Positions 17,296-33,290 of a stretch of 33,295 nt of DNA are shown here, one piece after another. Numbering within the stretch: position 1 is the first letter of the stretch; every line of letters begins with the position of its first letter. The notes below the pieces were generated by a model. The model saw only the letters and a list, made by a program, of their open reading frames with translations. It was not told the DNA's origin and did not search any database. The translations under genes and the position numbers were made by a program. The DNA comes from Armatimonadota bacterium (lineage in GTDB: Bacteria; Cloacimonadota; Cloacimonadia; Cloacimonadales; TCS61): positions 1 through 33,295 of the forward strand of contig JABMPU010000154.1 in assembly GCA_013203665.1 (NCBI GenBank). The letters run 5' to 3'.

Positions 17296-19281
17296 ATGAT
17301 TTTATTCTTTATATTTATAACTGTAATTTTGATTACCTGGTTTTATAAAAAAACCATTCCTGAAATCGGAAGAGAAAAAAAGTATCTTCTGATTTTTCTC
17401 AGAAGTATTTCAATTATTGCGGTTTTAATACTTCTATTAAATCCGATACTATACTTTTCACAAAAGATTTCAAAGAAATCAGAAATCTTTTTCCTCTCAG
17501 ATATTTCTGAAAGTATGAATCAAAAAAAAGACGAAATCAACAAAATTGCAACTTTAAAAGAATTTAAAGAAAAAATTAAGGATAAACTTGTATCGCAAAA
17601 TTATAATATTTCTGAAATTGAATTCGCCAACGGAATGAATGGTATAAAATCTTCTACAAATCTTTCCAAGACGTTTGAAGATATATCCAAAAAGCTCAGT
17701 CTAACTGATGTTAAAAATATTTTTCTTTTTTCAGATGGTTGGTTCAGAGATGAAAATTTGAACATTTTAGATGATTTTAATATTCCCATTTTCACATTTA
17801 ATCCCAATTTTGAAATCACAGATTTTGACCTTGAAATTTCCAATTTGAATTTCAATAAAAATGCATATAAAAACGAAATAACTCCAATTATTGTAAATGT
17901 TTCTGCATCACATTTCAATCAAAAAGCAAAAGTGAATCTGATTATAAATGGAAAAACATCTCAAACAAAAAATGTTGATTTCTCAAATGATAACTTTCAG
18001 CAAATCATCTTTGAGCAGATTTTTGAGAAAACCGGTTTACAGCCTTTTGAGATTGTCATCGAATCTGATATGGAAAATGAGATCAACCTGGCAAACAACC
18101 GCTTTCCTGCTGCTATTCAGGTTCTGGATAATCGTGCTAAAATATTGGTTATTTCCGACAATTTGAACTGGGATGTGAAATTCATTTTGGATGCGGTAGA
18201 GAAAAATCAACGCTGGAATTCGGATTTTCTACTCAAAGACAGAATCTTGAAAAAAGGTAGAAAAACCACCAGTCTTTCAGAAAATATCAAAGAAACTGTT
18301 GTTCTGATCTTAATTAATTATGATTTTCTGAATCTCACTCATATTGAGACAGAAATTATAAATAATTTTGTGAAAAATGGAGGAGGTCTTCTTATATTTG
18401 GAAAACCTGTAACTTCGCTTATTGACATCCTGCCAGCAATTCATTCCGGAATTGCTTCATCCTTTAAATCCACATTTTATTTTACTGATGAAAGTAAGAA
18501 ATTTCAAACATTTGAATATCTTAAAAATACAGATGAAATTCCACCGGTTGATTATTATTATGTTAATGCCAAACTGCAAGCAGAAATCCTGGCAAAAATC
18601 GAGAATGATGAGCAAAGTCCGGCAATTCTATTTAATGAATTTGAAAATGGTAAAGTGCTTTATTTCAGTTTTAATAATCTTTGGAAATGGCAGCTTCGCA
18701 ATTCCGATTATTCTGATTTTATGACAAATATTATTTTGTGGTTAAGTGCATCAAATACAGAAAGGTTCGTCTCTTTCACAGATAAATATAGTTACTTTGA
18801 GGGAGAAAAAATCATGATTACATTAACTGCGTTTGATGAAAAACTGGCACCAATAACAAACCTTACAGCAAAATTGATAATAAAACAAAATGAGAAAAAG
18901 ATTTTGGAAGAATATCTGCTTGAAAAAAGAGATGAATATTTCGCGGAAATTGAAGAATTGGAAAAAGGAAGCTATCGTTATTCGATCTTTGCTGAAAAAA
19001 CCGAGCAACAAACTTCCGGCAATTTCCTGATCACAGATGATAATCCGGAAGCAAGAGACAGGGGATTCAATCAACCTTTGCTCGCTTATATTTCCAAACA
19101 AACCAATGGAAAAATAATTGATGAGGAAACTCTATCTGATTTTACATTTCCCAAAGCGATTTCTAAAATTGAAGAGCTTAAAACCGAATTACCCATTTAT
19201 CGGAAATGGTATTTAATCGCTATATTTTTGGTTTGCTTCTGTACGGAATTATTCCTCAGAAAAAGATGGGGACTGCTTTGA
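17296..19281 (+). CDS. Membrane protein with VWA-like and GATase1-like regions
   Basis: 661 residues. Hydrophobic segments at about 2-16 and 30-53 anchor the N-terminus, and one at about 637-652 ends the protein just before a basic RKRWGLL tail. Between them is a von Willebrand A-like region with MIDAS motif DISES at 69-73. A later part (about 275-380), with KILVISDNLNWDVKFIL and NNFVKNGGGLLIFGKP, resembles the glutamine-amidotransferase-like fold used in large VWA membrane proteins. Family members often sit beside MoxR ATPases; none is present here. Function is unknown; metal-dependent protein binding at the periplasmic side is an inference. It is a single gene between palindromic spacers, convergent with the tautomerase gene. 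Confidence 0.7.
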   Translation: MILFFIFITVILITWFYKKTIPEIGREKKYLLIFLRSISIIAVLILLLNPILYFSQKISKKSEIFFLSDISESMNQKKDEINKIATLKEFKEKIKDKLVSQNYNISEIEFANGMNGIKSSTNLSKTFEDISKKLSLTDVKNIFLFSDGWFRDENLNILDDFNIPIFTFNPNFEITDFDLEISNLNFNKNAYKNEITPIIVNVSASHFNQKAKVNLIINGKTSQTKNVDFSNDNFQQIIFEQIFEKTGLQPFEIVIESDMENEINLANNRFPAAIQVLDNRAKILVISDNLNWDVKFILDAVEKNQRWNSDFLLKDRILKKGRKTTSLSENIKETVVLILINYDFLNLTHIETEIINNFVKNGGGLLIFGKPVTSLIDILPAIHSGIASSFKSTFYFTDESKKFQTFEYLKNTDEIPPVDYYYVNAKLQAEILAKIENDEQSPAILFNEFENGKVLYFSFNNLWKWQLRNSDYSDFMTNIILWLSASNTERFVSFTDKYSYFEGEKIMITLTAFDEKLAPITNLTAKLIIKQNEKKILEEYLLEKRDEYFAEIEELEKGSYRYSIFAEKTEQQTSGNFLITDDNPEARDRGFNQPLLAYISKQTNGKIIDEETLSDFTFPKAISKIEELKTELPIYRKWYLIAIFLVCFCTELFLRKRWGLL

Positions 19282-19282
19282 G

Positions 19283-19307
19283 ATTGAAAATTGAAAATTG
19301 AATATTT
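19283..19307. repeat. Heptamer array ATTGAAN
   Basis: Three and a half 7-nt units (ATTGAAA, ATTGAAA, ATTGAAT, ATTT) directly after the VWA gene stop. The same heptamer occurs within the coding sequence at 23785-23816. Confidence 0.6.
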
Positions 19308-23672: not shown

Positions 23673-26255
23673 TTATTTCATCAGAACCATTTTCCTGGTT
23701 GATGAATATTTTCCTGCCTGCATCTTATAAAAATAAATTCCGGATGCAACAGGTCTGTTCATATCGTCTTTTCCGTCCCAAACAATTGAAGATTGATTAT
23801 TGAAAATTGAATATTGTTTAATTTTTTCTCCTTTGATATTATAGATTTCAATTACAGGATTTTCGATATTAAAAGGCATTTCGAAACTTATTATGGTTTC
23901 AGGATTAAATGGATTTGGATAATTCTGATATAACATGGGTAAAGAAGAAACAACATTATTTTCAGATGAAAGATTAATCAGACTCCATACCACTTCGATC
24001 TCAAAATATGTATCATCCTCAAAAGTTGCTGTTAAAACACCTCCACCGGGATAACTCCAGGAAGTTGCACCAGTTACATTTGCGGGAGGATTACCGGTGA
24101 AAAATTGAACTGTACAGCCTGTGCTGATATAACCTTTGGCTAAATCAGTTTCAATGTTTAATGAGATATTCGTTGTATCTGAACAAGTGATAATATCCAC
24201 ATCATCATAATCCACATCCTGACCATCCTTTAAAAAAAAGACGCTGGGAATTTCACCATTAAGACGGGAAATATTTAAAGCATAACCATCAAAAGCAACG
24301 TCCACACCTAAGAAATCAGTAGTAACAAGATCAGAATTATATTTTACCAGAGAAATAGCTTCTTTATTATCCTCTGCAATTGTTCCACCAATGCAATCTC
24401 CTAAATTTATGGGCGTATAAACAAAATCTCTGGTTGATTGAGCAGGCATTAAAAAAGATGAAAAAAGAACTAAATCACCTGTAGTAATTGAAGCCTGTGT
24501 TACAGTATGCTCATCAGCAATATTGTAGCCACCCTCATGATAATCATCATAACTGGAAAGAGTAATTGCTGAAGATGAATTTATAAAGAAATTCAGGTCA
24601 ACTCCATTTACCGAATATTTTGAACCGTTTGCAGTTAAGACAAAATCGTTTCCTGTATTTCCACCACCATTTCCATGAAGAAGCCAATCGTAAGTATGAG
24701 AAGCCTCACTATATACATAATCTGAAATTATGAAATAGTTGTTATGAATAAAAGAGACACACCTCATAAAATAGGCATCTTCATACATTGTTAAAACTTC
24801 GGCATAATCGATAAAAGGAGTATCAAAATAATTTGCGATTAGAGCATCTGTTCCATTGGCAGCAGCAGTACTGGCAGCACTTGGACCTTCTCCATCCACC
24901 AGGATTAAACTGTGATTTTTGGCATACCGAACCAGATCGTGCTGGTCATAACTGATATATCCGCTATCCATTGCCAGAAGCTCTCCATAAGCATAAATAA
25001 TAAAACTCATATTATCCGGATGTTCATGAGCACGACCACCTTCTCTGGCAATTCCATATTCTCCGAGCAAGCACATATAAACTGCGTTCTCCTCCCAACT
25101 GCTTCGGAAAATTGCCTGTCCTGCTTCTGGTAAGAAATAAGTTAAATCTTCCGGTTCTGTAATCCCGGTATAATTATCATCATAAACGCAGATCATCTCA
25201 ATATCCAGATTTCCCGGCGAAGCATAAGTATTATACGGATTTCCGGAATCAATATAATCCCAGGCAAATACATCATCATCATAATAACCTGCAAAAAAAC
25301 CACTGAAATAATATGGTTCATTGAAACTATCATCAAAATTGGGACGAGCACCATTTGGTAATCGAATTTTAATTCCCCAGGCAGCATTCAGTTGAAATCT
25401 CTCATCCAAAAGATTTGGCGGCAAACTGGTTCCTGCATAATCTTCTGTGGCGCCATTTACAAAATTATTATGAGCAATGGCAAAAGGAATAACATTGAAA
25501 GCAGTATATTTCTGATAATGAGCTCCTTCAGACCAGCCTCCATCAGCATCCACCAAGTATTCGTGATATGAATTATGCAGCAAGTTCATTCCATAATTTA
25601 TCCAGGATAGAGGTTGTTCCGTTACATCACCGCTTGTTTCCGTATTAAGAACAATAGCAGCCATTCCCAGGGCAGAAGCAAGTTTGGCTCCGAAGTTCGT
25701 CTTTTTACCTCCTGCTTCCCAAAGAATATTAACCAGGTAATCATTCATAATATCATCATATAAACCGGCAGCCATCGCCTGAATCTGGTCTCTCACATCA
25801 GGTTCGTCTCCTGCGAAATCATAGCTATTACCTTTTAGAAAGTCATAAGCAGTAGAAATTGCAGTTAAATTTTCCGAATCCCAAATGATGTTTTCATAAA
25901 CATCAGTATAACCACTTGCCGGTTCCCGGTCTGCAACTAAAAGATATTCTTTAGCTTTATCTGCATAAAGAACATCGCTCTGCATCAGATAACGAAATGC
26001 TGCTGAGCGGCATACTTCTGCTTTGTCTCTTTCCATTTCGCAAGCTGAGTATTCAACATCAGATTTTGATTCGATATTCGCATGAGAATCGGAATAGGGA
26101 GCAATGAGAATTCTATCTCTGACAGCCTCCAATTCAGCTTCTTCCAGAATTGTTCTGGGCCAATGTGTGTACTCCGGATGCCATGCTCCTTGTGCTAATA
26201 GTGTTGTTGTACAAAATAATGTGATTAAAAAAACTAAAAATTTTACATACTTCAT
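23673..26255 (-). CDS. Secreted heparinase II/III-like lyase with C-terminal sorting domain
   Basis: 860 residues, signal peptide ending near LLAQG. An alpha/alpha-toroid region (about 35-350, with EAGGKKTNFGAKLASALGMAA and HEYLVDADGGWSEGAHYQKYTA) is followed by the heparinase II/III C-terminal beta region, with RAHEHPDNMSFIIYAYGELLAMDSGY carrying the family histidine, and NHSLILVDG. Such enzymes cleave acidic polysaccharides by beta-elimination; the sugar here is unknown. The last 90 residues are the sorting domain: NYPNPFNPETIISFEM, IYNIKGEKI, WDGKDD, ASGIYFYKM and KMVLMK. GGAGG 7 nt before the ATG at 26255 fixes the start; a TTG at 26261 is too close to it. A heptamer array is embedded in the sorting domain (23785-23816). 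Confidence 0.85.
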   Translation of the reverse strand: MKYVKFLVFLITLFCTTTLLAQGAWHPEYTHWPRTILEEAELEAVRDRILIAPYSDSHANIESKSDVEYSACEMERDKAEVCRSAAFRYLMQSDVLYADKAKEYLLVADREPASGYTDVYENIIWDSENLTAISTAYDFLKGNSYDFAGDEPDVRDQIQAMAAGLYDDIMNDYLVNILWEAGGKKTNFGAKLASALGMAAIVLNTETSGDVTEQPLSWINYGMNLLHNSYHEYLVDADGGWSEGAHYQKYTAFNVIPFAIAHNNFVNGATEDYAGTSLPPNLLDERFQLNAAWGIKIRLPNGARPNFDDSFNEPYYFSGFFAGYYDDDVFAWDYIDSGNPYNTYASPGNLDIEMICVYDDNYTGITEPEDLTYFLPEAGQAIFRSSWEENAVYMCLLGEYGIAREGGRAHEHPDNMSFIIYAYGELLAMDSGYISYDQHDLVRYAKNHSLILVDGEGPSAASTAAANGTDALIANYFDTPFIDYAEVLTMYEDAYFMRCVSFIHNNYFIISDYVYSEASHTYDWLLHGNGGGNTGNDFVLTANGSKYSVNGVDLNFFINSSSAITLSSYDDYHEGGYNIADEHTVTQASITTGDLVLFSSFLMPAQSTRDFVYTPINLGDCIGGTIAEDNKEAISLVKYNSDLVTTDFLGVDVAFDGYALNISRLNGEIPSVFFLKDGQDVDYDDVDIITCSDTTNISLNIETDLAKGYISTGCTVQFFTGNPPANVTGATSWSYPGGGVLTATFEDDTYFEIEVVWSLINLSSENNVVSSLPMLYQNYPNPFNPETIISFEMPFNIENPVIEIYNIKGEKIKQYSIFNNQSSIVWDGKDDMNRPVASGIYFYKMQAGKYSSTRKMVLMK
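23785..23816. repeat. Heptamer array inside the sorting domain of the lyase gene
   Basis: Four and a half 7-nt units, CAATNNN on the coding strand, translated in frame as YSIFNNQSSIV. The same heptamer family lies outside genes at 19283-19307 and 8-21. It falls in the loop just before the conserved V-W-D/N-G strand. Confidence 0.7.
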
Positions 26256-26295
26256 AAACAAACCTCCATCTCTTATTTTTTTCTCTTTTCTCCTT

Positions 26296-27399
26296 TTATT
26301 TCATTAAAGTTATTTTCTTTGAACAAATTACTCGACTTTCATTTTTTAGAATAATGAAATAAATACCTGAAGCTTGATTCTTTGCGTTCCAGCTAACTTC
26401 TGATTGCTGACTGCTAATTACTAATTCATCTACTTTCTGTCCTTTCACATTATAGATCACCAGCTCCGTGTCCTCCGTAATCTCTGTGGTTAAATTAAAC
26501 GAGATCGTGGTAGTCGGATTAAACGGGTTTGGAAAAATTCTACAATTCATACTATTTTTATTTTCTAAAACATTTCCTATTCCCGCACCATTAGACAAGT
26601 AAAAAAACAATTGAGGAGCTTCATTAATAACACTCGTTTCATATGATGTAAATCCCACCTGATCTGCCAAATCATCCCAATCCGTATTTATTTGAAAAGC
26701 AATCCGGTATTGAGTTATATCTCTTCCCATTGTATAATCTTGTAGAACACAATCCGTTACATCAAGATAACGGTACCCATCTTCTCCGCTTTCCGTTATT
26801 GTACCAATGTTATGATTATATGTATAGGGGTTGCCATGATCTCCTTTCGACCAATCTAAAGAATCCAGTTCATACCCATAATCAATATGGCTCATGATAC
26901 ATTTTATAGTATCACCTCCCGCTACATCCCAAATCGGAAAATCAGATTGTGGGAAACCAAGATAATTTAAATTTCCGTGGCTTATCCATTGATAAAGTCT
27001 CACATTAACGGAGTCAATATCATATCCAACTGGTATCTCTGGTAAAGAAAAGGTTAAATACGAACGAAAATGTGTGTTCGGGATTTGAGGTCCTCCCATA
27101 CCATTCAACATCTGATCACCTGTGTTTAATTCATACATCCAATTATTCACAACAAATATTTCTGTTGGTAATTCAAAAGCAATATAACCATCCAATGGTC
27201 CAATTGAATACACACTGTCTATTATTGTATCGGCAGAGAGAAAGGACCCCGGTATGCACCAGGGCATGAATGGAAAAAGTAATCCGCCTACGCAAAGAAC
27301 AGCAAGAAAAATATTGCTTCCGCCTTCACAAAATTTCGGCGAGACAAGTCGTCGTGACAAGAAGGATAAAGGAAAAAATAATATTCGTTTTAATTTCAC
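26296..27399 (-). CDS. Secreted protein with C-terminal sorting domain, DNRLRE-like region
   Basis: About 367 residues. Start chosen at GTG 27399, with GGAG 6 nt upstream; the ATG at 27411 overlaps that GGAG and has none of its own. The N-terminus is odd: hydrophobic ILFFPLSFLS, then basic RRLVSPKFCEGGS, then a second hydrophobic stretch FLAVLCVGGLLFPFM. The middle (about 75-265) looks like a DNRLRE/carbohydrate-binding beta domain: paired strands such as FRSYLTFSLPEIPVGYDIDSVNVRLYQW and a D-V-T-D position. The end is a sorting domain (FPNPFNPTTTISFNL, IYNVKGQKV, SGIYF, KKITLMK) with an embedded heptamer array. It lies 22 nt after the metalloprotease stop, or 10 nt if the ATG is used. Function not assigned. 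Confidence 0.75.
   Translation of the reverse strand: MKLKRILFFPLSFLSRRLVSPKFCEGGSNIFLAVLCVGGLLFPFMPWCIPGSFLSADTIIDSVYSIGPLDGYIAFELPTEIFVVNNWMYELNTGDQMLNGMGGPQIPNTHFRSYLTFSLPEIPVGYDIDSVNVRLYQWISHGNLNYLGFPQSDFPIWDVAGGDTIKCIMSHIDYGYELDSLDWSKGDHGNPYTYNHNIGTITESGEDGYRYLDVTDCVLQDYTMGRDITQYRIAFQINTDWDDLADQVGFTSYETSVINEAPQLFFYLSNGAGIGNVLENKNSMNCRIFPNPFNPTTTISFNLTTEITEDTELVIYNVKGQKVDELVISSQQSEVSWNAKNQASGIYFIILKNESRVICSKKITLMK
26392..26426. repeat. Heptamer array inside the sorting domain of the 26296 gene
   Basis: Five 7-nt units, coding-strand form AATTAGT/AGTCAGC-like with A(A/G)T(T/C)AG(N) consensus, translated as ELVISSQQSEVS. It is at the same loop as the array in the neighbouring lyase gene but with a different heptamer sequence. 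Confidence 0.7.
27300..27370. repeat. TCGCCGAA-type repeat within the N-terminal coding region
   Basis: On the minus strand this reads TTGTCTCGCCGAA, a short A/T spacer, then GAAGGCGGAAG. A similar layout (AAGTCGAA, spacer, GCGAAGAC) occurs outside genes at about 30863-30887. Here it lies in the signal-peptide region of the 26296-27399 gene and encodes the basic RRLVSPKFCEGGS segment. Nearby, 27246-27265 forms a small hairpin (CCCCGGT/ACCAGGG). Confidence 0.4.
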
Positions 27400-27421
27400 G
27401 AGCTTCTCCATTGCTCATTTT

Positions 27422-30804: not shown

Positions 30805-30822
30805 TTATTATTCCTTAATTTA

Positions 30823-31003
30823 TGGGTTCTGCATAATTGGGTGTTTTTGTCATCCTGCTTGCCAAGTCGAAGCTAGCGAAGACTGGAGGAATTCTTCTTG
30901 CTTTTCTCTCGAAGGAACTCCGCTTTTAATGAGATTCTTCGGAAGATTACCTTTGGAGGAAAACTCAGAAAGACATACTTTTTGACATTTTGCAGAATCC
31001 TTA
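30823..31003. mobile_element. Small MITE-like insertion, 181 bp
   Basis: Exact 13-bp direct repeats flank it (30810-30822 and 31004-31016, ATTCCTTAATTTA). Inside, short inverted ends TTCTGCA (30827-30833) and TGCAGAA (30991-30997). Further in, GTCATCCTG (about 30849) and CAGAAAGAC (about 30966) form a second inverted pair as in the common GTCATCCTGAG-type repeats. No coding sequence. It lies upstream of the cyclase start. The remaining 31017-31086 shows nothing. Confidence 0.5.
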
Positions 31004-31086
31004 ATTCCTTAATTTAACAATAGAGGATAAATTACATAATGTTATACTTCGTCAAGAATTTTATGATTGGGTACTAGATAATTGTT

Positions 31087-31154
31087 CAGCCACTAAGGTC
31101 GCGAAGCAACACGAAGACACTCCTTGTACCTCCAGAAAGCTTTCGGGAACAAGC
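31087..31154. repeat. CACGAAG repeat followed by CTTGTTCC-type palindrome
   Basis: 31087-31120 (CAGCCACTAAGG..., ACACGAAG) is the same family as 2827-2858 and the reverse complement of 9050-9080. 31122-31154 contains CCAGAAAGCTTTCGGG between CTTGT and ACAAG, a copy of the repeat at 19311-19343. Confidence 0.5.
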
Positions 31155-31229
31155 AGAAAGAATCATTTCTAAATCCGAATTTCTAATTTCAAATAAAATG
31201 ATAAAACCAAAATGTCCAAATATTTGAGA

Positions 31230-31280
31230 TTTGTAATTTGGAATTTTATTAGATATTAGAAATTTGTTATTTGGAATTTA
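31230..31280. repeat. AT-rich direct repeat
   Basis: TTTGTAATTTGGAATTTT (31230-31247) and TTTGTTATTTGGAATTTA (31263-31280) match at 16 of 18 positions. The second runs into the stop codon of the small membrane-protein gene. Simple repeat of no evident function. Confidence 0.45.
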
Positions 31281-32099: not shown

Positions 32100-33074
32100 T
32101 TATTTCATCAGGATCATCTTTTTAACGCAAGTGTAATCTCCGCAGTTCATTTCGTAGAAATAAATGCCGCTGGAAACCGGAGCTCCATTATCATTTTCAC
32201 CGTTCCAGACTACCTGATGCACTTGAGCTTCAAAATCAGCTCGAACCAGAGTCTTAACTTTTTCTCCTTTGATATTAAAAATATCAATGCTGACAAAACC
32301 TGGATTATCCATAGAAAATTCAATAGTAGTTTCCGGGTTAAACGGATTGGGATAATTACCGATCAGCTCTTTAACAGCGGGAACAATTCCTCCGCCGGTT
32401 CCTGCATCATGAATCAAATCTTCCGGAGTTCGCGGATTAACACCATATTCTTCATAAGACCAATCAACCATTCCAGAAAGACTAGCCCAAACATCGTTTA
32501 AAACAATAACGATTGGCGGTACTACCTCATCAAGATAGAAAAATCCATCATCCATCTGGCAATCTCCGGTTCCATCACTCACATACCACTGTCCAAATTC
32601 AATCTGCTCTTCTGTTACTGTTACATCCAGCAGATTCACTAAACATCCCTCATATTGCTCTGCATCGACCGGATCGATCAAGTTGCCGGTTTCAACAACA
32701 ATTGCATCAGGAACCGGATTACCTGAACTGAGAATTGTATAACTTGTAAGATTACTGATTTCAGTCATTCCGAAATATTCCGAGACAACTCCGGTAATTT
32801 CTACTTCATCTCCAACCTCAGGAAAAATCTCTCCAAAATAGACCAAGACTCCTTTCCAGGCTCCACCTTCCGGCATTGAAATAAAATAATTATCATCATA
32901 ATGAGCCCAACCAATAGCAGTAACGATTCCGGTGAGCGTTACAGTATCACCTTCCAGTAAAGACGGATAAGTTCCATCCCCTGCAACTGTGGTGTACTGA
33001 ACATCATAAATTGTGGTGGCAAAGCAAGTAAAAACAAAAATTAATACAACAAAAATTGACAACAACTTTTTCAT
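32100..33074 (-). CDS. Secreted OB-fold protein with C-terminal sorting domain
   Basis: 324 residues, signal peptide KKLLSIFVVLIFVFTCFA. The mature start TIYDVQYTTVAGDGTYPSLLEGDTVTLTGIVTAI and the repeat VGDEVEITGVVSEYFGMTEIS are the OB-fold type found ahead of secreted nucleases (YhcR/extracellular endonuclease N-termini), with a probable second OB-like unit (about 120-210). No nuclease domain follows; the sorting domain comes next (NYPNPFNPETTIEFSM, IFNIKGEKV, WNGENDNGAPVSSGIYFYEM, KKMILMK). Start at 33074 with GGAGG 5 nt upstream; the ATG at 33086 overlaps the site. It could bind extracellular DNA or sugar, or be a leftover of a nuclease. Its sorting domain lacks the heptamer array. Confidence 0.82.
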   Translation of the reverse strand: MKKLLSIFVVLIFVFTCFATTIYDVQYTTVAGDGTYPSLLEGDTVTLTGIVTAIGWAHYDDNYFISMPEGGAWKGVLVYFGEIFPEVGDEVEITGVVSEYFGMTEISNLTSYTILSSGNPVPDAIVVETGNLIDPVDAEQYEGCLVNLLDVTVTEEQIEFGQWYVSDGTGDCQMDDGFFYLDEVVPPIVIVLNDVWASLSGMVDWSYEEYGVNPRTPEDLIHDAGTGGGIVPAVKELIGNYPNPFNPETTIEFSMDNPGFVSIDIFNIKGEKVKTLVRADFEAQVHQVVWNGENDNGAPVSSGIYFYEMNCGDYTCVKKMILMK

Positions 33075-33183
33075 AACTCCCTCCATTTTTTTTAGTTTAT
33101 TGTGGGAAGATAAAAGTTTTTATGATAATTGACGTCAAGAATTTTCTGTGGAACACCCATTAAAAGTTCCGGGATATTGTTTA

Positions 33184-33290
33184 GTTCAGGGTTCAGGGTT
33201 GTGGGTTGTGGGTTGTGGGTTCAAGGTTCAAGGTTCACGGGTTCCCGTGTTCACGAATTCACGATCTCACGAATTCACGTGTTCTAGGTT
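33184..33290. repeat. Heptamer array and octamer array
   Basis: 33184-33239 is eight exact 7-nt units: GTTCAGG twice, GTTGTGG three times, GTTCAAG twice, GTTCACG once. 33252-33285 or so has 8-nt periodicity in CACGAATT/CACGATCT words, an 8-nt relative of the TTCGTG family. No gene is seen from 33087 to the window end. Confidence 0.75.

Follow-up and report, generated by a model that had tools for sequence, protein, structure and literature searches.

Short repeat DNA in two loops of putative type IX sorting domains of a Cloacimonadota bacterium

Heptamer arrays in the window and the domain that carries them

The window analysed here, meaning the whole stretch of 33,295 nucleotides, contains a gene for a heparinase II/III-like secreted protein (the lyase gene, 23673-26261, reverse strand; open reading frame and Pfam match PF07940), whose product ends in a C-terminal sorting domain (CTD; 23676-23942, reverse strand). 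Next to it lies a second sorting-domain gene (26296-27411, reverse strand; likewise from its open reading frame and Pfam), with its CTD at 26299-26556 on the same strand. The TIGR04183 / PF18962 match scores 40.7 bits in the lyase and 40.6 bits in the second gene, at a cut-off of 23. The closest named relatives of the lyase come from Ca. Cloacimonadota CSMAG_2896 (72%) and Ca. Cloacimonas sp. SDB (56%).

Each of these two genes carries a tandem array of exact 7-nt units, and re-reading the coding strand bore out the original prediction on both position and period. In the lyase gene (23785-23816, reverse strand) the coding strand reads CAATATT CAATTTT CAATAAT CAATCTT CAAT, spaced by exactly 7 nt, and this CAATNNN array encodes QYSIFNNQSSI, which spans the end of strand 4, the Lβ4β5 turn and strand 5. 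In the second gene (26392-26426, reverse strand) the five units AATTAGT AATTAGC AGTCAGC AATCAGA AGTTAGC all fit A(A/G)T(T/C)AGN and encode LVISSQQSEVS. As predicted, both arrays occupy the same CTD position, namely Lβ4β5 between the KG(Q/E) motif and the invariant W, hereafter site B. A second loop of interest, Lβ2β3 or site A, reads MPFNIENP in the lyase, where no repeat was recognised (23856-23879, reverse strand); in the second gene it holds the filler NLTTEITEDTE, a 9-mer repeat of the ACNGAGNNC type (26464-26496, reverse strand).

CAAT-type DNA was also said to occur between genes, and a CAATNNN array indeed lies at 19283-19307 (no strand assigned), immediately behind the stop codon that ends the upstream gene (19279-19281). 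While two sorting-domain genes with arrays had been described correctly, the window holds a third one (32100-33086, reverse strand) whose canonical 18-residue loop is free of repeats and serves as an internal control. Of all period-7 arrays in the window, the strongest lies between genes and is of the GTTCAGG type (33184-33244, no strand assigned). Upstream of the third gene, at 33184-33279, GTTCAGG heptamers pass into GGGTTCAC / TTCACGAA 8-mers, such that unit length shifts inside a single array. Another intergenic stretch, 30805-31277, combines a TGTCATCCTGCTTGCCAAGTCGAAG-type palindrome with degenerate heptamers (ATTTGTA/ATTTCTA) and resembles elements seen in two other genomes (G001 and G010).

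The heptamer arrays are real and not due to chance. A sample of 965 kb of the 3.4-Mb genome, made of stretches chosen around sorting domains, contained 62 period-7 arrays (score of at least 12) against 0 in a second-order Markov copy, and periods 8 and 9 were likewise over-represented. When synonymous codons were resampled with the peptide held constant, the observed period-7 score was reached at p=0.01 for the lyase and p=0.001 for the second gene. Across 20 CAATNNN tails the score averaged 15.8, as opposed to an expected 5.1.

The lyase CTD is modelled as a seven-strand Ig-like fold (AlphaFold2 pLDDT 89). Across 73 tails, AlphaFold2 predicted a beta-sandwich whose strands follow the order found in known CTDs (pLDDT 89), an Ig-like arrangement like that of the PorU, PorZ and RgpB CTDs, and the best Foldseek matches among solved structures were PorU (6za2), a T9SS substrate (8glk) and PorZ (5m11), at E values of about 1e-3 that are modest but specific. 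The genome also encodes SprA (TIGR04189, 505 bits summed) and the sortase PorU (NF033707, 431.7 bits, cut-off 420). By profile matches and models, then, the tails are type IX secretion C-terminal sorting domains. In the model, site A corresponds to Lβ2β3 and the motif IYNxKGQ to Lβ3β4, which lies between the two filled loops; the lyase array peptide forms a strand-turn-strand, and the same strands are predicted for a tail whose filler is palindromic, with lower confidence inside the filler. In Porphyromonas CTDs, Lβ3β4 and the C-terminus are essential and the remaining loops are variable (PMC11285876). The arrays lie in other loops and therefore avoid exactly the parts that are known to matter.

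Repeat fillers across the sorting-domain family

This genome contains at least 150 tails matching TIGR04183 / PF18962. We read the loop between KGQ and W in 142 tails: most have a canonical 18-residue hairpin (KVKTLVNEQLSAGQHSVV), and in about a third site B is filled by translated repeat DNA belonging to a dozen or more unrelated classes. These comprise heptamers (CAATNNN, TCAGNNN, AGTCAGC, AATTA(G/C)N, ATTCCTA and others), 8-mers (CAAATCNN, TTAACCAG) and small palindromes such as TTCCCAAACTGGAGTTTGGGAACGAG, GTCATCCTGAGCGAAGTCGAAGGA and GTGACGAGTCCCTCGTCAC; fillers were sorted into classes with regular expressions, and a few assignments, for example those based on single short matches, are doubtful. 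The suggestion that the loop tolerates insertion is supported. Site A, just before IYNxKGQ, holds 9-nt types translated as TESTENTE, AENAENAE or KDAKDAK.

Mapping heptamers onto the listed sorting-domain genes, the check proposed with the original prediction, revealed strong enrichment at site B in other cargo genes, with 266 period-7 arrays per 100 kb as compared with 0.5 in other coding DNA; the linker before YPNPF had 50 and intergenic DNA 21. Period-9 arrays reached 73 per 100 kb in site A, 13 in intergenic DNA and 0.7 in other coding DNA (gene calling was mechanical). Genome-wide we count about 38 separate CAATNNN arrays, overlapping rows having been collapsed by hand, and about half of them lie in site B.

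Further places of insertion were seen beside the two main loops. Heptamer arrays sit in the linker directly before YPNPFNP at C94:46688-46724, C201:63849-63885, C7:96120-96149, C82:1039-1069 and C88:5378-5409 of this genome. A third place lies right after NPFNP in tails of G010 (L111, from 3083 onward; also L196, L197, L198 and L206), where the inserts SGAGRSP, SSTGRSS and VASRSPE recur and seem to form a filler family specific to that genome. A fourth is the loop between the last two strands, in the tails L193 and L156 and in the C-terminal part of L111 (CLHPDSSGKAG, PHNLSGKTG). In G010 a sorting domain (C112:46795-47040) also ends an open frame of 7763 residues.

Untranslated intergenic copies exist for several filler classes, including CAATNNN. 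The search used 104 kb of cleaned, masked intergenic DNA and is semi-quantitative: without masking, truncated tails at contig ends produced 85% matches for a control segment, and with it controls fell to 7-23%, the segment after W still giving 23%. Four of the larger classes (n of 4 or more), among them the AGTCAGC class of the second gene, had no match in these 104 kb, and for this reason some fillers may be confined to tails. The filler GTGACGAGTCTCTCGTCACAA..GACGGAGTCGGCTACTCCATA, carried by L142, L157, L163 and other G001 tails, was seen in tails and was absent from the cleaned intergenic DNA; it is perhaps a tail-only element. Separately, the genome has seven matches to Y1_Tnp (PF01797, the IS200/REP-associated transposase), one of them broken by a stop codon, at C116:31850, C51:13766, C76:27243 and four more places. 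Such transposases are possible movers of the palindromic elements.

Filler turnover between relatives and spread as DNA

No two of the three lyase orthologs share a filler: the gene studied here has heptamers, the CSMAG_2896 ortholog a TTCCCGAAC..GGGAACG palindrome, and the SDB ortholog a longer loop of unrelated sequence. The same behaviour emerges from comparison with the same-genus genome G001, which is limited to 21 ortholog pairs. In pairs with bodies 79-94% identical, DNA identity is about 92% up to YPNPF, drops to 0.3-0.7 in sites A and B, rises partway again in IYNxKGQ, and from W on is back at about 0.9 in the clearest pairs. Among pairs with at least 73% body identity, DNA identity at site B was 0.51 in repeat-bearing tails (n=13) as opposed to 0.86 in repeat-free ones (n=8; p=3e-4), and at site A 0.64 (n=13) as opposed to 0.87 (n=8; p=9e-4), while the flanking DNA was alike in repeat-bearing and repeat-free tails (0.89 and 0.83 before, 0.80 and 0.82 after). 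When stretches replaced between the two genomes were mapped without bias, tail DNA had 13 in 6.7 kb, intergenic DNA 16 in 6.8 kb and the remaining coding DNA 10 in 95 kb. Tails differ from other coding DNA (p=3e-10), at about 18 times its rate, and do not differ from intergenic DNA; they therefore behave like intergenic DNA. The intergenic breaks themselves hold palindromes and heptamers of the same general kinds as the fillers.

Could such differences stem from short-read metagenome contigs that were misjoined in repeated tails? The assemblies are indeed fragmented metagenomic drafts (220 contigs for G000, about 590 for G001) with many tails near contig ends. However, orthologous DNA flanks the replaced loops on both sides and the same fillers recur in the same loop of many separate genomes, which makes misassembly very improbable; the reading frames are intact as well.

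The original prediction went on to propose that gain or loss of single units might act as a phase or diversity switch for secreted proteins. The diversity half holds in another sense, in that orthologs differ in the repeat that fills the loop; the frame-switch half is not supported, filler length and phase being constant. Slippage by 7 nt would shift the frame of the sorting domain and toggle cargo secretion, and there are reasons to consider it: the tandem units lie in coding sequence upstream of the essential C-terminus, and in strains of other bacteria heptamer arrays differ by 7-nt steps (PMC4679880). Yet all uninterrupted CAATNNN fillers form one 15-residue loop in one phase, and no ladder of 7-residue (three-unit) steps was seen among fillers, nested insertions apart. 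In three genomes, 334 of 335 paired tail halves are intact, the sole broken tail having a stop codon rather than a frame shift, and these genomes, one per species as in all our comparisons, displayed neither unit-number variation nor a frame-shifted form. Moreover, arrays of 4-5 imperfect units are poor substrates for slippage, and palindromes and 8-mers occupy the same loop. We thus consider a switch highly improbable. Given that 7 mod 3 is 1, a heptamer array without stops yields one and the same seven-residue cycle whichever frame is read, and only the array ends set the frame downstream; this frame-independent cycle may help arrays to be tolerated.

The CAATNNN filler offers the clearest view of spread. 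A 42-nt pattern consisting of the filler and the W codon, with up to 3 mismatches, was found in 13 of 125 Cloacimonadota genomes, spanning 5 genera, one of them from another family, with 0 hits for reversed controls. Seven foreign carriers have a clear ortholog here (at least 55% identity), and in 6 of them that ortholog has another filler; at least one filler thus spreads as DNA between mostly non-orthologous genes. Over 56 copies, variation affects 1.9% of sites in the CAAT core and 9.8% in NNN (p=3e-13) irrespective of codon position, and the GTN codon that directly follows the array has a free third base, unlike the frozen synonymous sites within. Variation in the heptamer register together with this free base means that conservation is at the level of DNA, not of the peptide. 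Read in antisense, CAATNNN arrays would meet stop codons at seven-residue intervals, in keeping with the one orientation that they have in tails. In three G001 tails, a 33-nt palindrome is nested in-frame within the heptamer array.

These observations bear on the idea that QYSIFNNQSSIV is nothing more than a favourable beta-hairpin, which selection has conserved or produced by convergence, with the DNA period arising from codon choice. The predicted strand-turn-strand and the constant length within a class would suit it. Nevertheless, synonymous resampling does not reproduce the period, variation follows the heptamer register with frozen third positions next to a free codon, the same DNA is found untranslated between genes, and a dozen unrelated fillers serve the same place; we regard selection on the peptide as very unlikely to be the explanation.

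Somewhat less remote, but still unlikely, is the exchange of whole sorting domains, whereby domains and their fillers are duplicated or swapped as units and shared fillers mark recent duplicates. The filler at site A is statistically associated with that at site B (p=5e-8 in this genome, 5e-6 in G001), and a few ortholog pairs, L035/L158 among them, differ across most of the tail. On the other hand, the excess similarity between tails of this genome that share a CAATNNN filler is limited to about 20 nt on each side, and beyond about 9 nt after W they are no more alike than others (p=0.26 and 0.69). In L065/L148, L109/L156, L091/L191 and L086/L159, identity with the ortholog returns to about 90% in the DNA after W. 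Near-identical CAATNNN filler across genera requires transfer between species or a homogenising process, and conversion within one genome does not explain it. Replacement by dispersed repeats, as opposed to point changes at adenines, does not suggest a diversity-generating retroelement.

Proposed origin and relation to known repeats

The reading we favour, with a probability of roughly 0.7, is that the arrays are the genome's own short repeats, residing in permissive CTD loops and exchanged as short tracts, with no slippage switch. The source would be the genome's population of 7-, 8- and 9-nt tandem arrays and small palindromes, which come to lie in the permissive loops Lβ2β3 (site A) and Lβ4β5 (site B) of type IX CTDs. 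If the secretion signal is read from the conserved Lβ3β4 turn (IYNxKGQ) and the C-terminus, the flanking loops can accommodate whatever sequence is free of stops, in frame and able to form a turn. New repeats would enter these loops as they enter intergenic DNA, and resident fillers would be swapped between tails through their conserved flanking DNA, by ectopic recombination or gene conversion, with occasional transfer between related species. Selection would remove out-of-frame outcomes; the loop probably affects export little, making most changes nearly neutral, and the filler may be lost together with the tail on cleavage by PorU. As an expected outcome, species differ in what the loop contains, and the loop varies fast without breaking the protein.

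A more specific and more tentative proposal, which we think somewhat less probable than its negation, is that each filler is a mobile micro-cassette, about 35-75 nt long, which travels from one sorting-domain gene to another, both within a genome and between genera, and enters one structural loop where conserved flanking DNA holds it. Among the compared genomes, we saw no donor-recipient pair and caught no element in the act of moving. If the proposal is true, secretion tails would be a reservoir and exchange site for repeat DNA, and each species would have its own set of loops.

Several known systems invite comparison. Rickettsia palindromic elements (RPE) and REP within ORFs are small dispersed repeats, normally intergenic, that are found in frame in likely functional hosts (PMC3733652). 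Similarly, small palindromes fill site B in-frame in many tails here, and a repeat can be present in one protein and absent from its ortholog with the frame kept. However, RPE occur in various host genes, while here the hosts are essentially one domain family and two to three of its loops, other coding DNA having 0.5 arrays per 100 kb rather than many unrelated hosts; tandem 7-9-nt arrays are also used, and fillers are replaced between close orthologs. The TAACTGA heptamer direct repeats of Beggiatoaceae, Cyanobacteria and Bacteroidetes are mostly intergenic, with some in ORFs, often at protein ends, and related genomes differ in 7-nt steps (PMC4679880). They too are 7-nt direct repeats in many places, but with one fixed unit that precedes start codons in the main species, whereas here many units are concentrated in a secretion-tail loop. 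The likeness to cyanobacterial STRR raised in the original prediction stands as far as a multi-copy heptanucleotide tandem goes; it lies in unit length and copy number, and we claim no membership. Our search of the open-access literature found no statement of STRR in a conserved loop of secreted proteins, nor an earlier description of repeats in T9SS sorting domains. The BrickBuilt MITE of P. gingivalis was considered as a parallel and set aside as strictly intergenic. As in the CTDs of PMC11285876, loops other than Lβ3β4 vary strongly in length and sequence; that work, in the part available to us, compares different cargoes and does not deal with repeat DNA, whereas here dispersed repeats are the source of variation and change between orthologs.

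A practical consequence concerns annotation: peptides such as QYSIFNNQSSIV, FPIPNSSLLIPNQ and CHPERSRRI in the secreted proteins of this group are best read as translated repeats. More broadly, a single protein domain gives the genome's short repeats a refuge within coding sequence, where they are quickly replaced. Repeats usually found between genes occupy one coding loop here, several hundred times more densely than the rest of the coding DNA, and turn over there as fast as in intergenic DNA. With at least 150 copies of the landing site per genome, known ends, a frame filter and many relatives, the family constitutes a natural experiment on the movement of short repeats. The natural insertions also map the free and the fixed parts of the type IX signal, in agreement with the Porphyromonas mutants.
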